From Pseudomonadota bacterium (GTDB lineage Bacteria; Pseudomonadota; Gammaproteobacteria; Steroidobacterales; Steroidobacteraceae), in the NCBI GenBank assembly GCA_025356815.1, contig JANXQL010000045.1:1-33749 (forward strand): a stretch of DNA of 33,749 nucleotides, in the 5' to 3' direction. Every line of letters begins with the position of its first letter. The first letter of the stretch is position 1. A model generated the notes under the pieces. It was not told the DNA's origin. It made no database searches and worked only from the letters and a program-made list of their open reading frames with translations. Both the position numbers and the translations under genes were made by a program. Below are positions 24,979 to 33,122 of the stretch, in pieces.

Positions 24979-25353
24979 TCAGGGCATCCGGATGCGGCCG
25001 CCGGCCGGCAAGCCGCCGCCTGCCTCCGGGATCACGAGCGAGGAGGCCTGTTCCCGGCGCATCTGCTGCAGCTCGCGCATCGTCTCCTCGATGCCGGTCT
25101 TCGCGCCTTCGGCGAAGCCGGCGAGCGCCTCGGTGAGTGACTTGGCGTGGTCCAGCTCGAAAGTGATCGGCAGCGCGCCCATCGGCGTCATGACCTGGAT
25201 CTGGCCGACGTACAACGTCGGTCGGACCGGGTCGGCGGCGCCATCGGCCTTGACCGGCACGAGTACCCGCAGCGTCCCGACCCGGCGGTCCGTATAGCTC
25301 TCTTCCCGGTACAGGTTGTCGATGTCGAAACTAGCTTCGGTCTGGGCGTTCAT
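24979..25353 (-). CDS. Conserved-looking 124-residue protein, function unknown
   Basis: A small soluble protein starting MNAQTEASFDIDNLYREESY at an ATG with CGGAG 9 nt upstream. It has no signal peptide or membrane segment. Predicted features are a beta-rich first half (RVGTLRVLVPVKADG, TLYVGQIQVMTPMGALPITFEL) and an alpha-helical second half (SLTEALAGFAEGAKTGIEETMRELQQMRREQ), then a glycine-rich end. I do not recognise a named family, though the composition looks like a folded, conserved cytoplasmic protein. It is first in line before modB and modC, 22 nt apart, so co-transcription is likely. It is not a ModA substitute, because it is too small and unexported. It is divergent from alr, with about 156 bp between them. 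Confidence 0.75.
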   Translation of the reverse strand: MNAQTEASFDIDNLYREESYTDRRVGTLRVLVPVKADGAADPVRPTLYVGQIQVMTPMGALPITFELDHAKSLTEALAGFAEGAKTGIEETMRELQQMRREQASSLVIPEAGGGLPAGGRIRMP

Positions 25354-25509
25354 CGCGGGTCTCCGAGGGGATCGTTCAGGGCAGGTCGCCAACCTATCAG
25401 ACGGCGGGGCGCTGCAGAAGCGGCAGCGCCACGCGCCGCGCCGCGAGGACGTAGACTTGGGCTTCCAGGCCGGGCTGTGAGCCGACGAGTGAACGAGATC
25501 CCCCGAGTC

Positions 25510-26595
25510 ATGCCGGCCCTGCCGCCAGCCGAGCTGCATATCGACCTCGGCGCGCTGGCGGCGAACTATCGCGCGCTGTGTGCCATTGCCGCGCCGGCGC
25601 AGGTCTCGGCCGTGGTCAAGGCCAATGCCTACGGGCTCGGCGTCGGCCCCGTGGCCGCCGCTCTGGTCGCCGCCGGCTGCGACACCTTCTTCGTGTCCTC
25701 GCTCGCCGAAGGCGTCGAGCTGCGGGTGTTGCAGCCCGCGGTGCGGGTACTGGTGCTGGAGGGCGCCGGCGGCGATGTCGCGGCGTGTCTCGCCGCGCGC
25801 CTGGTGCCCGTGCTCAATACTCCCGTCGAGGTCCGTCAGTGGCTGGCCCTCGCGCACGGCGCCGAGGCCGCACTGCAGCTCGACACCGGCATGATGAGGG
25901 CGGGCCTCGATGCCGCCGACCTGCGCGAGCTCGTCGCGGCGCCCGGCCTGCTTGGCGCGCTGCGCCTCACGTTGGTGATGACGCACCTCGCCTGCGCCGA
26001 CGAGCCCGGTCACCCGCTCAACCGGGCACAGGTCGAGCGCTTCGCCGCGCTGCGTGCGATGCTGCCGCCGGCGCCGACCAGCATCGGCAACTCGGCAGGG
26101 ACGCTGCTGGGTCCGGAGTTTCGCGGCGAGCTCGTGCGCCCGGGAATCGCGCTGTACGGCGGACGGCCGTTCGCGAGCGGCGCCAACCCGATGCGACCGG
26201 TGGTCCGCCTCGTAGCGCGCGTGCTGCAGGTGCGCGAGCTGCACGAGGACGCCACGGTCGGTTATGGCGCCAGCGCCCGCCTGCGCCCGCCGGCGAGGAT
26301 CGCCACCGTTGGCGCCGGCTACGCCGACGGCTATCCACGCGCGCTCGGCAACCGTGGCTACGCCTGCATCGCGGGCGTGCGCGTGCCGGTGATCGGCCGT
26401 GTCTCGATGGACCTGACGACACTGGATGTCTCCTCGCTGCCGGCAGATCGGGTGCGCGTGGGAGATAGCGTCGACCTGCTTGGCGGCGGTGTGTCGCTGG
26501 AGGAGGCGGCGGAAGTCGCCGGCACGGTCAACTACGAGTTGCTCGCGCGACTGTCGACGCGCCTGGCGCGCTCGTACCACGACGCGTCTGGCTGA
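25510..26595 (+). CDS. alr: Alanine racemase
   Basis: PLP-dependent enzyme interconverting L- and D-alanine for peptidoglycan, 361 residues, the normal size. The PLP-lysine is in SAVVKANAYGLG (Lys37), and the second catalytic base is Tyr252 in TVGYGAS. Other hallmarks are LDTGMMRAGL, LVMTHLACADEP, SIGNSAGTLL, RPGIALYGGRPF, ATVGAGYADGYPRAL, GRVSMDLTTLDVS and VNYELLARLS near the end. ATG 25510 gives the standard N-terminus (ELHIDLGALAANYRAL); in-frame GTGs at 25477 and 25489 are possible but less likely. No strong Shine-Dalgarno is seen. Monocistronic by its neighbours. Whether it is the biosynthetic Alr or the catabolic DadX cannot be told, as no dadA is adjacent. Confidence 0.95.
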   Translation: MPALPPAELHIDLGALAANYRALCAIAAPAQVSAVVKANAYGLGVGPVAAALVAAGCDTFFVSSLAEGVELRVLQPAVRVLVLEGAGGDVAACLAARLVPVLNTPVEVRQWLALAHGAEAALQLDTGMMRAGLDAADLRELVAAPGLLGALRLTLVMTHLACADEPGHPLNRAQVERFAALRAMLPPAPTSIGNSAGTLLGPEFRGELVRPGIALYGGRPFASGANPMRPVVRLVARVLQVRELHEDATVGYGASARLRPPARIATVGAGYADGYPRALGNRGYACIAGVRVPVIGRVSMDLTTLDVSSLPADRVRVGDSVDLLGGGVSLEEAAEVAGTVNYELLARLSTRLARSYHDASG

Positions 26596-26674
26596 AGCGG
26601 GCCGCTGCGCGACCGCGAGTGTGAGTCTCGTCACATCTTCGCGCACTTGTCAGGCAACTTCCGGCTGAAAGCGC

Positions 26675-30582: not shown

Positions 30583-32766
30583 TCAGCGGCCGTGCGCCGC
30601 CATGGCGCCGAAGCGGTAGGCCGCGTTCGCCCCGACGGTACGCGGTTCGCCCCACTGCAGGTACAGCTTGTTGGGGTAATCGGGCGGCTCCAGCCCGAAG
30701 TAGAACCCGCGCACGGGGTAGTCGCGGTTCGCGAGGTTGCGGCACCAGCCATACAGCGACCACTGTGCGGACTCCCAGCCCACTTTGACGTTCGCAAGCG
30801 CATACGCGCTCGATCGCGTGGGGTTCGGCGGCAGGTCGAAGTAGAACCCGCCGCGGCCGCTCACATCCACGCGGGCGAACAGCCCGTTCGCCGCTCGGTA
30901 GGTCGCGTCCAGCGATGCCTGCCAGTGCGGTGCGTTCGCAAGTTCACGCGAGACGCTCTGTACGCCGCTGTCGGCAACGCGGACGAAGTCGTGGAAGGAG
31001 GTCTGCAGCAGGCCCAGCGTAGCGCCGAGCGTCAGGTGGTCGGTCCAACGCCATCGAGCGGTCAACTCCGCGCCGTAGTTCCTGCCCGTGGCGGCGTTGC
31101 CGGTGTACAGGATGAACGTGTTCGGGTTGGTCGGGTCGGTCTGCACACTGGTCTTGATCTGGGCGTCGCGGCGCAGCAGGGTGAACAGCGCCGCGTCCAC
31201 GCTCCAGCGTCCGTCGTCGGGCTGCGCCTTGTAGCCGGCCTCGAGATTCCAGCCGGACTCCGGGCGGAACGCGATCTCGCCCGGCAGCAGCCCCTGGCTG
31301 AGGTTGAAGCCACCGGCCTTGTAGCCACGCGCGAGCAGCACGTACAGGCGCGAGGTGGCCGACAGCTCATAGCCGAGCGAGGCATGGCCGCCCCAGAGCG
31401 TCTCACCCGGCCGGAAGGCGGTCGCGCTGGATGTGTCGTAGACGCGGTCGGTCACAAGGTCGGCGTAATCGGCCGTATGGCGCTCCAGGCGCAGTCCGAT
31501 CGAGCCGTGCAGGCGCTGCGCCGGATTGCCCTCGAGCGCGCCGTACAGCGCGACGTTGCGGGAGCGGTAGGCGCTGTTGGTCAGCGTGTCTTGCTGGTAG
31601 GTGCCGTAGACAGGGTCGATGGACAGCCCTGCGCTGCGATCAGCGAAGCTCTCGCGCAGCTGCATCGCGTAGGCGCCGAGCAGCCAGGCGACACCGGGAC
31701 CCGCGTCGCTGGCGAGCCTGACCTCGGCGGTTGCGGTACGTCGATGGCGGGACTGCAGCTCCGTGAAGTCGTAGACGAACGGCGCCCAATAGCGGTCATT
31801 GCCCCAGTCGCCGTCGTAGCCGTACTGCACGCGGGTATCGGCGTAGGTGCCGATCGCGGTGAGCGTCTGCGCGGCCGCGCCGTTATAGGTCAGGTGAACC
31901 GAGGCGCCGCTGGAGTGCTGGGCGTCGATGCCCGGGTGGTCCGAGTGGGTGGTGCGGCCGTTGTCCGGGGCGAATGCGTCGTAGCCGTTGTCCAGCTGCA
32001 CGTGCAGCGCGCTGACGTCGATGGTGACCACGTCCGAGGGCCTGTAGCGCCAGCGGCCGCGCAGCGTCAGCTCGTCGCGGCCGTTGGTGTCGTGCCGCTG
32101 CAGGTAGTCGTTGTAGTAGTAGCCGTCGCTGGTCTCGCGCTGCACGGCGAGCCGGAACGTCGAGTCGAGGGCCGCGACTGGCCCTGTCACCACGCCGCCG
32201 ACGCTGCGCGTACCGTAGTCGCCGGCGCCGGCCTCGATTCGCCCGCCGAACTCAGGCTCGGGTGCGGCGCTCGTTACGTAGATCAGGCCGCCGAGCGCGC
32301 TCGCGCCATAGCGCGTGGCCTGCGGGCCGCGCAGCACGTCGACCGAGGCGATGTCGAACAGCGTCGCCGCGCCGCCCAGGCCGCTGAAGTCGATGTCGTC
32401 GATCAGGAACCCGATCGAGGGGTTCGGGGCGCCCTCGTACTGCTCCAGCTCGCCGATGCCGCGCAGCTGGAAGTAGCGCGGCCGGTTGCTGTCGCCGGCC
32501 CAGTTGAGGTTGGGAATCAGCGCGAGCGTGTCCTCCAGGTGCTGGCGCCCAGCGTCGTGCAGCGTGCCGGCATCGAGAACCGTAACGCTGCCGGCAAGCT
32601 GCTGCGCCGGCATGGGCCGCAGGGTTGCGGTCACGATGACCTCGGCGAGATCGCCGTCGGCGGGCGCGGCCCGCGCGCGTTCGCTCGGCGTGAGCGACAG
32701 CAGCGCCGTGGCGAAGAAGACACAGGTGCGGGACGAACGGTCCCGAAAACGGACGATGGCAGACAT
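30583..32766 (-). CDS. TonB-dependent outer-membrane receptor, predicted for thiamine or precursor
   Basis: A 727-residue gated beta-barrel. Residues 1-34 are a signal peptide. A TonB box (EVIVTA, 42-47) precedes the plug domain, which shows QLAGSVTVLDAGTL, YFQLRGIGE, GFLIDDIDFSG and VDVLRGPQATRYGASALGGLIYVTS. The rest is barrel with paired aromatic strands (YVLLARGYKAGGFN, WNLEAGYKAQ, ASLDATYRAANGLFARVDVSG) and a C-terminal strand ending in a non-aromatic extension (MAAHGR). A TPP riboswitch immediately precedes the ATG and supplies its ribosome-binding site. Receptors under THI-element control are known and are predicted to import thiamine or its pyrimidine/thiazole precursors. No other thiamine gene is adjacent. 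It is convergent with the REC-GGDEF-EAL gene, 27 bp apart. Confidence 0.93.
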   Translation of the reverse strand: MSAIVRFRDRSSRTCVFFATALLSLTPSERARAAPADGDLAEVIVTATLRPMPAQQLAGSVTVLDAGTLHDAGRQHLEDTLALIPNLNWAGDSNRPRYFQLRGIGELEQYEGAPNPSIGFLIDDIDFSGLGGAATLFDIASVDVLRGPQATRYGASALGGLIYVTSAAPEPEFGGRIEAGAGDYGTRSVGGVVTGPVAALDSTFRLAVQRETSDGYYYNDYLQRHDTNGRDELTLRGRWRYRPSDVVTIDVSALHVQLDNGYDAFAPDNGRTTHSDHPGIDAQHSSGASVHLTYNGAAAQTLTAIGTYADTRVQYGYDGDWGNDRYWAPFVYDFTELQSRHRRTATAEVRLASDAGPGVAWLLGAYAMQLRESFADRSAGLSIDPVYGTYQQDTLTNSAYRSRNVALYGALEGNPAQRLHGSIGLRLERHTADYADLVTDRVYDTSSATAFRPGETLWGGHASLGYELSATSRLYVLLARGYKAGGFNLSQGLLPGEIAFRPESGWNLEAGYKAQPDDGRWSVDAALFTLLRRDAQIKTSVQTDPTNPNTFILYTGNAATGRNYGAELTARWRWTDHLTLGATLGLLQTSFHDFVRVADSGVQSVSRELANAPHWQASLDATYRAANGLFARVDVSGRGGFYFDLPPNPTRSSAYALANVKVGWESAQWSLYGWCRNLANRDYPVRGFYFGLEPPDYPNKLYLQWGEPRTVGANAAYRFGAMAAHGR

Positions 32767-32858
32767 TGCGCTCCCTACGCCGGTACTAACCGGATCAGGT
32801 TCAACGGGTTTGCGGGCCCACCCCGCATCTCAGGCCCACGAAGGACCACCCCAGCAAG
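32767..32858 (-). ncRNA. TPP (THI-element) riboswitch
   Basis: Reading on the minus strand, the segment holds all the conserved TPP aptamer elements in order: GGGGTGG, a helix GGTCC/GGGCC, the pyrimidine-sensing CTGAGA, an accessory stem TGCGGG/CCCGCA, ACCCGTTGAACCTGATC, and the pyrophosphate-sensor arm CCGGTTAGTACCGG, then GCGTAGGGAG. The last GGAG lies 4 nt before the ATG at 32766 and is the only Shine-Dalgarno. Ligand binding, which closes P1 and holds the GTAGGG strand, should therefore block translation initiation directly. No separate terminator stem lies between aptamer and gene. The aptamer identity is near certain; the translational mechanism is inferred from spacing. Confidence 0.95.
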
Positions 32859-32920
32859 GCCGCGGAGCATACACGTGCAGTGCGCCGGTCCGGTAGTCCG
32901 GACACCCGGGGCGAGCGGGC

Positions 32921-32951
32921 TTGCCCGTCGCGCCAAGCGATCGGCTAGTAT
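32921..32951 (+). promoter_or_regulatory. Sigma70-like promoter for the right-edge gene pair
   Basis: TTGCCC (32921-32926) and TAGTAT (32946-32951), with a 19-bp spacer, match the -35 and -10 consensus at four and five of six positions. The -10 box ends 6 nt before the ATG at 32958, so transcription should start at the A of the start codon and give a leaderless message. Confidence 0.5.
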
Positions 32952-32957
32952 CGGTTC

Positions 32958-33122
32958 ATGGACTCCGTCCTCGCTTCGACGGCTTGCGCCGGCGCCCGGG
33001 CGCTTGCGATGCGCATGTCGCCGCAGCAGCGCCTGCAGGCATTGCTGCAGCATTCTCAGCTGATGGCGGCGCTACATCGCGACGGCAAGGCGCTGCGTGC
33101 CGCGGGGCGTCGCCCGCCGTGA
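32958..33122 (+). CDS. Small basic helical protein, 54 residues, paired with a nucleotidyltransferase
   Basis: Starts MDSVLASTACAGARALAMRM, continues SPQQRLQALLQHSQLMAALHRDGKALR and ends AAGRRPP. The middle is a predicted amphipathic helix rich in Gln, Leu and Ala; the end is basic. No Shine-Dalgarno is present, but a -10 box sits at the leaderless distance. The stop overlaps the GTG of the downstream nucleotidyltransferase frame by 4 nt (GTGA), a sign of translational coupling. Small helical proteins next to MNT/AbiEii-type nucleotidyltransferases occur in toxin-antitoxin-like modules, so a partner role is plausible, but I recognise no specific family. An internal ATG at codon 20 (MSPQQRLQ) is an alternative start. 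Confidence 0.55.
   Translation: MDSVLASTACAGARALAMRMSPQQRLQALLQHSQLMAALHRDGKALRAAGRRPP

Follow-up and report, generated by a model that had tools for sequence, protein, structure and literature searches.

How can a riboswitch govern translation when its aptamer runs up to the start codon? The question is raised by the leader of a gene for a TonB-dependent outer-membrane receptor on the 33,749-nucleotide (nt) contig JANXQL010000045.1 (assembly GCA_025356815.1) of a gammaproteobacterium of the family Steroidobacteraceae; this whole stretch is hereafter called the window. A first-pass annotation, made from the letters of the window, had proposed a thiamine pyrophosphate (TPP) aptamer on the minus strand, directly before the receptor gene, and a covariance search against Rfam family RF00059, which it called for, returned a match well over the cut-off. 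In our judgment, the leader is quite probably a platform-free TPP riboswitch that acts on translation by direct occlusion and, in a bacterium auxotrophic for thiamine, turns off the outer-membrane receptor for that vitamin.

The TPP aptamer and the start of the receptor gene

The cmscan match to RF00059 scored 74.1 bits against a gathering cut-off of 54.3, with an E value of 5.3e-13 for the window, which rules out a chance match; it spans the whole model (positions 1-105), with a single nonstandard pair, located in P1. A genome-wide search, in which 150 of 172 first-look candidates were scored, found no other RF00059 match in the window's genome (4.0 Mb, 95% complete), and the aptamer would be expected to bind TPP. 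In our assignment of the helices, read from the cmscan structure line together with the sequence, P5 is formed by CCGG/CCGG, and UAGG (32777-32774), the first four nucleotides of the Shine-Dalgarno sequence (SD), is the 3' strand of P4, opposite CCUG (32799-32796), with the following GA lying in the junction. The first-pass annotation had the SD inside the aptamer, 4 nt from the ATG, and this holds, the spacer being CGCA (32770-32767). Its assignment of GUAGGGAG to the closing helix, and of GTAGGGAG to the closing region, has to be revised: UAGG and GA are accounted for as above, GTAGGGAG belongs to P4, and the closing helix P1 falls between the SD and the AUG. P1 extends into the start codon itself, with A32766 of the AUG opposite U32857.

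The ATG at 32766 is the only in-frame start listed between the upstream stop codon and 90 nt beyond the ATG, so that a more downstream start codon was rejected; the orthologs at loci L002 and L007 align with the window receptor from residue 1. With the SD in P4, the AUG at P1, a single in-frame start, and the start codon 29 nt past the aptamer core (measured here and below from the last A of GAACCTGA), the ribosome-binding site (RBS) lies within the aptamer, and the expectation that there is no room for a separate expression platform is borne out. The coordinates of these features are collected in Table 1.

Table 1. Features of the receptor gene and its leader in the window
Feature	Coordinates	Strand	Basis
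TPP riboswitch aptamer (RF00059), full length, probably nearly the whole leader	32753..32863	-	cmscan, 74.1 bits
Probable -10 element TATGCT	32866..32871	-	TANNNT 10-14 nt before GGGG of P2 in the genus
P1, 5' strand UUGC	32854..32857	-	structure line and sequence
P4, 5' strand CCUG, built-in anti-SD	32796..32799	-	cmscan structure line
SD UAGGGAG	32771..32777	-	sequence; duplex with anti-SD -8.1 kcal/mol
P1, 3' strand GCAA, last A being the A of the start codon	32766..32769	-	structure line and sequence
Start codon ATG of the receptor	32764..32766	-	same core distance in L002, L003, L007 and 12 of 15 genus leaders
TonB-dependent outer-membrane receptor, 727 aa; Plug 54-160, barrel 240-678	30583..32766	-	Pfam PF07715, PF00593

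Conservation of the leader within the genus

The geometry is conserved in a sample of 15 genomes of the window's genus, the window's own included. One THI box was found in each of the 15, at the receptor; this and the other THI-box counts given below are lower bounds, as part of the first-look candidates were scored, with stricter filters in the genus and order set. Of the 15 leaders, 12 have their start codon 29 nt past the core; in L125, L133, and L128, the distance is 30, 31, and 32 nt, respectively. A frame of 721-740 codons opens in 13 of the leaders, and the frames of L123 and L131 run off their contigs; the former still matches the receptor, and the latter gave no receptor match. The P1 helix of L126 and L130 is seven pairs long and extends over the first two nucleotides, A and U, of the AUG located 29 nt past the core; L126 carries a second ATG at 26 nt. 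Across the genus leaders, P1 strands match their own partners better than exchanged ones, a modest effect: 232 of 5000 swaps were as good as the own partners (257 of 5000 after collapsing like rows).

In all 14 genus leaders tested, which are related rather than independent, a TANNNT motif precedes the GGGG of P2 by 10-14 nt; at shifted upstream places, its rate is 1.1%. A sigma-70 scan that required both promoter hexamers found no promoter. If TATGCT is the -10 box, transcription would start at about the first base (5' edge) of P1, yielding a leader barely longer than the aptamer.

Short and long leaders among orthologs

For a broader comparison, 80 related loci were fetched, and 74 of these together with the window made up a set of 75 leaders, in which frame, SD, and signal peptide guided the choice of start and the leader class was assigned by hand. 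Core-to-start distances cluster at 29-37 nt in 37 leaders and at 83-130 nt in the other 38. L009, L011, L013, and L022 were classed as long because their downstream start yields a signal peptide by eye; L009, L011, and L022 also carry an in-frame ATG at the position of the short-leader start (hereafter, the direct position). Six loci received no class: L027, L028, and L050, where contigs start; L067 and L075, which lack a usable core and start; and L069, where the search pattern missed the core. Another search finds that core, with a start 112 nt on, which would put L069 among the long leaders. A single genome may underlie L019 and L081, which carry the same name.

The two groups differ in what follows the aptamer. 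A CCGGATC-type strand was found by motif in 29 of the 38 long leaders, in many cases with a GGAGATC-type SD after it, and complementarity to the CUGAUCCGG of the aptamer exceeded that in shuffled sequences (p up to 0.05) in 24 of the 38, whereas only 2 of the 37 short leaders, about the chance rate, passed the same threshold. On this basis, most long leaders look like strand-exchange switches and the short ones look like direct occlusion. In the window, no anti-aptamer strand was detected on the downstream side, the side searched (p=0.735 over 76 nt).

Several leaders depart from these patterns. Nine long ones lack the CCGGATC-type motif (L029, L030, L033, L042, L048, L052, L059, L063, and L065); L030 nevertheless displays complementarity to the aptamer, and L065 seems to have a hairpin of its own over the SD. 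In L060, L061, L062, and L066, from myxobacterial or unassigned metagenome-assembled genomes, GAACCTGATCCGG is replaced by GAACCTGAGACGG or GAACCTGACACGG, with an altered P4/P5 junction.

Comparison of the orthologous leaders thus favors direct occlusion in the window over classic strand exchange, in which a partner upstream or in the coding region would break the aptamer when TPP is absent. Such partners do occur in the family, given the 24 long leaders with an anti-aptamer strand, and the tbpA leader of Escherichia coli, in the part of that study concerned, forms an anti-P1 stem (PMC11487190). We nonetheless consider strand exchange improbable here, because a downstream partner is absent from the window and not above chance in short leaders, and the upstream CCUCCUUGC pairs with GUAGGGAG in the predicted free fold of L007 but not in those of the window, L002, or L003. 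Present in one predicted fold of four, an upstream anti-SD strand was rejected as a shared ON state.

Possible switching between the two designs

The tree on which the two designs were placed holds 77 receptors, of which 73 have a leader class, and comes from a short search under a simple model; the sequences of L067, L075, L077, and L081 were too short for it, and 13 rows have an odd letter make-up. The two leader states require 7 changes on this tree, at least 6 of them forced by starred branches, versus a mean of 24.7 when shuffled. Other treatments of the doubtful rows gave 5 to 9 changes: flipping L009, L011, and L022 raised the count to 9, and dropping ten doubtful rows, or L055, L057, and L073 alone, lowered it to 5. 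This suggests that the riboswitch output was rebuilt several times among the relatives.

Putative intermediates are found in a Steroidobacter-like clade, where 8 of 10 long leaders (L004, L008, L009, L010, L011, L022, L045, and L056) have an ATG or GTG at the direct position, 30-31 nt past the core; of the two exceptions, L006 lacks such a start and L013 has one at 36 nt only. L056 comes from Povalibacter, a relative available in culture. The direct-position start is in frame with the receptor in L009, L011, and L022. In L004, L008, and L045, it lies about 31 nt past the THI core and opens a 31-34-codon open reading frame (ORF) that ends 19 nt inside the receptor gene, hinting at translational coupling under TPP control; in L010, the small ORF stops before the receptor gene. 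In these long leaders, which share ancestry, the starts kept at the direct position hint that one design may have passed into the other through translational coupling or a shift of the start codon.

We lean somewhat toward a broader scenario, in which the receptor family swapped its output several times between direct occlusion, where the aptamer is itself the RBS, and strand exchange, where a CCGGAUC strand can pair with either the aptamer or an SD copy of its GAUCCGG. The intermediates, with a direct-position start or an overlapping small ORF, would then be extant, and the end point in the window's genus would be an aptamer-only leader, from promoter to AUG, with the sole TPP-sensing RNA found in the cell controlling only an outer-membrane gate. 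No description of such alternating platforms within one receptor family was found in open-licence literature, in searches that were not aimed solely at this point.

The receptor and its probable cargo

That the regulated gene encodes a TonB-dependent outer-membrane receptor, as annotated at first pass, is confirmed by the Pfam matches to PF07715 (52.7 bits) and PF00593 (105.8 bits), both over cut-off; among NCBIfam models, none exceeded its cut-off. Where 900 nt or more of sequence follows the receptor gene, which is so in 72 relatives, a PnuC/PnuT-family gene starts within 700 nt in 59 of the 72, and a thiK-like kinase gene follows pnuT in 57. The 13 without an adjoining pnuT include the window's kin L002, L003, and L007, all three of them metagenome assemblies. 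Within the genus, the operon is split: 12 of the 14 other loci have room, and none of these 12 has pnuT or the kinase beside the receptor, yet a single pnuT-like gene, adjoined by the kinase gene, was found in each of the 15 genomes. The pair shares a contig with the receptor, at a distance of about 52-84 kb, in six of the 15 (G048, G050, G053, G055, G058, and G059); the window's genome carries it on contig C160. A THI box upstream and a pnuT gene in the operon or genome, the combination expected of a thiamine TonB receptor, are thus both present. The first-pass annotation had stressed that no inner-membrane thiamine transporter or thi gene stands beside the receptor; this is so among the neighbors scanned, but the genome search it proposed turned up the pnuT-like gene and kinase elsewhere, and no second THI box.

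Because the profile scores reach only the PnuC and APH level, the names PnuT and ThiK come from context. The transporter scores as PnuC in NCBIfam, and the kinase beside it (L082:2061-2927(+)) matches only APH and choline kinase in Pfam, with NCBIfam ranking a guanitoxin-pathway kinase model above ThiK, both below cut-off.

The pathway search in the window's genome covered ThiC, ThiE, ThiG, ThiL, the PnuT-like protein, and the kinase. ThiC, ThiE, and ThiG were not found, with controls matched in 13/14, 11/14, and 14/14 genomes, respectively, and ThiL is present (329 bits, over cut-off). As the three synthesis proteins were not found, the bacterium seems unable to make vitamin B1 and should need outside thiamine; with ThiL present, the cargo is likely thiamine itself. 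The first-pass annotation had left the choice between thiamine and a precursor; the former is supported, and the latter was rejected because no ThiE was found. Nor does the assignment follow purely from regulation, as then argued: it draws also on the operon context in the 59 relatives and on the missing synthesis genes.

ThiC was likewise not found in any of the 15 genus genomes. Among the genomes of 40 of the 80 loci, a hand-picked set that may include incomplete genomes, ThiC was found in three; all three are among the four genomes with two THI boxes, and in each ThiC is closely preceded by a THI box on its own contig. Six order-level relatives (G085, G089, G091, G096, G102, and G104) have ThiC with no THI box found under the strict filters, part of the candidates being scored, and thiamine synthesis there may escape control by a TPP riboswitch.

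Alternatively, the receptor might import something other than thiamine, such as a precursor or a siderophore-like compound, with TPP signaling only the nutritional state. Consistent with this, the pesticin receptor 4epa ranks first by sequence among solved chains, the solved-structure matches are siderophore, metallophore, or pesticin receptors, and NCBIfam provides no family above cut-off; furthermore, the window's PnuT-like protein had no match in 6 of 11 further genomes, mostly ones with receptor loci lacking pnuT or room, so that the PnuT partner is not universal. We regard this alternative as unlikely, given the pnuT-kinase operon in 57 of 72 relatives, the missing ThiE that use of a precursor would call for, and the finding in Bacteroides, in the pertinent part of PMC5613172, that a synthesis mutant needed more thiamine once it had lost a riboswitch-linked TonB receptor.

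Proposed mechanism

Under direct occlusion, P1 would be loose at low TPP, and 16S rRNA would take UAGGGAG from the short P4 helix, through 7 contiguous pairs (one G-U), so that the receptor is made. At high TPP, the ligand would lock P2/P3 against P4/P5 and close P1, placing the SD (in P4), the spacer, and the first nucleotide of the AUG (in P1) in one folded RNA on which the 30S subunit could not load. Thiamine entering through the receptor would cross the inner membrane via the PnuT-like protein, be trapped by the ThiK-like kinase, and be converted by ThiL to TPP, closing the regulatory loop.

Several observations weigh against this scheme, in addition to the patchy occurrence of the PnuT-like partner. 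In the predicted fold without ligand, UAGG is already largely paired (probability of being unpaired 0.03-0.19 in the window), so that a change of fold would leave the ON state unexplained and the ribosome would need to open P4; the minimum-free-energy folds of the window and three relatives also differ. P1 is poor in L121 and L123, and its covariation in the wider short group is weak: in the 30 of 37 leaders scored (seven were not scorable), own partners gave 8.17, swapped ones a mean of 7.48 with a standard deviation of 0.35, and the best swap 8.63. At about two standard deviations over swaps in this group, and with the modest result in the genus given above, covariation of P1 was rejected as strong proof. 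Finally, in the part of PMC5613172 concerned, riboswitch-linked OMthi and pnuT mRNAs of Bacteroides thetaiotaomicron changed little with thiamine.

Control mainly at the mRNA level, with TPP blocking ribosome loading and Rho or RNases then removing the untranslated message, has a parallel in E. coli tbpA, where it accompanies translational control according to part of PMC11487190, but seems to us very unlikely as the main mode: it would add a layer to occlusion rather than replace it, and an intrinsic terminator was rejected as the output because no such pattern was found in 32700-33100.

Genes around the receptor

Downstream of the receptor, and facing it, is a gene for a GGDEF/EAL protein; three ORFs on the upstream side had no Pfam match. 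No thi or pnu gene was found beside the receptor among the window proteins scanned, some window ORFs having been left unscanned. Farther off, a 555-residue ORF (24979-26646(-)) adjoining modBC-like genes had no match in Pfam or NCBIfam.

Relation to known systems

The window system is of a known kind, each of its parts having been described before. As far as the text of Barrick and Breaker (2007; PMC2258182) concerns TPP aptamers, it describes direct translation attenuation with RBS capture and states that the same mechanisms had been predicted earlier for TPP riboswitches. The window matches their direct attenuation in having the RBS inside the conserved core, with the purine-rich 3' end of the aptamer substituting for an SD; it differs from the cases covered there in belonging to gammaproteobacterial kin, in a P1 that reaches the AUG, and in orthologs that alternate with strand exchange. 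A 2024 review (PMC10907184), in its relevant part, treats the TPP class under strand exchange. As in the SAM-II and preQ1-II riboswitches discussed there, aptamer and platform are one unit and the ligand would hold the RBS in the fold, although the window aptamer is the larger TPP fold rather than a small pseudoknot.

On the transport side, a close parallel in the sources consulted in part is OMthi/BT2390 with pnuT-tnr3 of B. thetaiotaomicron (PMC5613172), which likewise combines a TonB receptor under a TPP riboswitch with PnuT in an operon that is sometimes split. In split Bacteroides operons, the riboswitch is mostly kept and sometimes doubled, whereas after the split in the window's genus no riboswitch was found at pnuT; moreover, pnuT is paired here with a ThiK-like kinase instead of tnr3, and searches of the window's genome yielded no ThiC, ThiE, or ThiG. 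The same link of a TPP riboswitch to a TonB receptor is seen in other Gram-negative bacteria in omr1, a putative thiamine transporter of the TonB-dependent type whose gene lies close to TPP riboswitches in SAR86 and Flavobacteriales (relevant portion of PMC10881298), the likeness noted here being one of regulation. The corresponding passages of two further papers place a TonB receptor within a Variovorax TPP operon (PMC10409787) and list thiamin as one of the substrates assigned to clusters of TonB transporters (PMC3400609).

Implications

In this leader, sensor and switch appear to be a single piece of RNA, with the aptamer tail doubling as the RBS. The orthologs constitute a natural set in which the same aptamer occurs with and without an expression platform, so that the cost, gain, and evolution of a platform can be measured in matched reporters. 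For the receptor, which domain libraries leave generic, the analysis indicates a likely function, thiamine uptake, and it points to a probable reliance of the entire genus on other organisms for vitamin B1.
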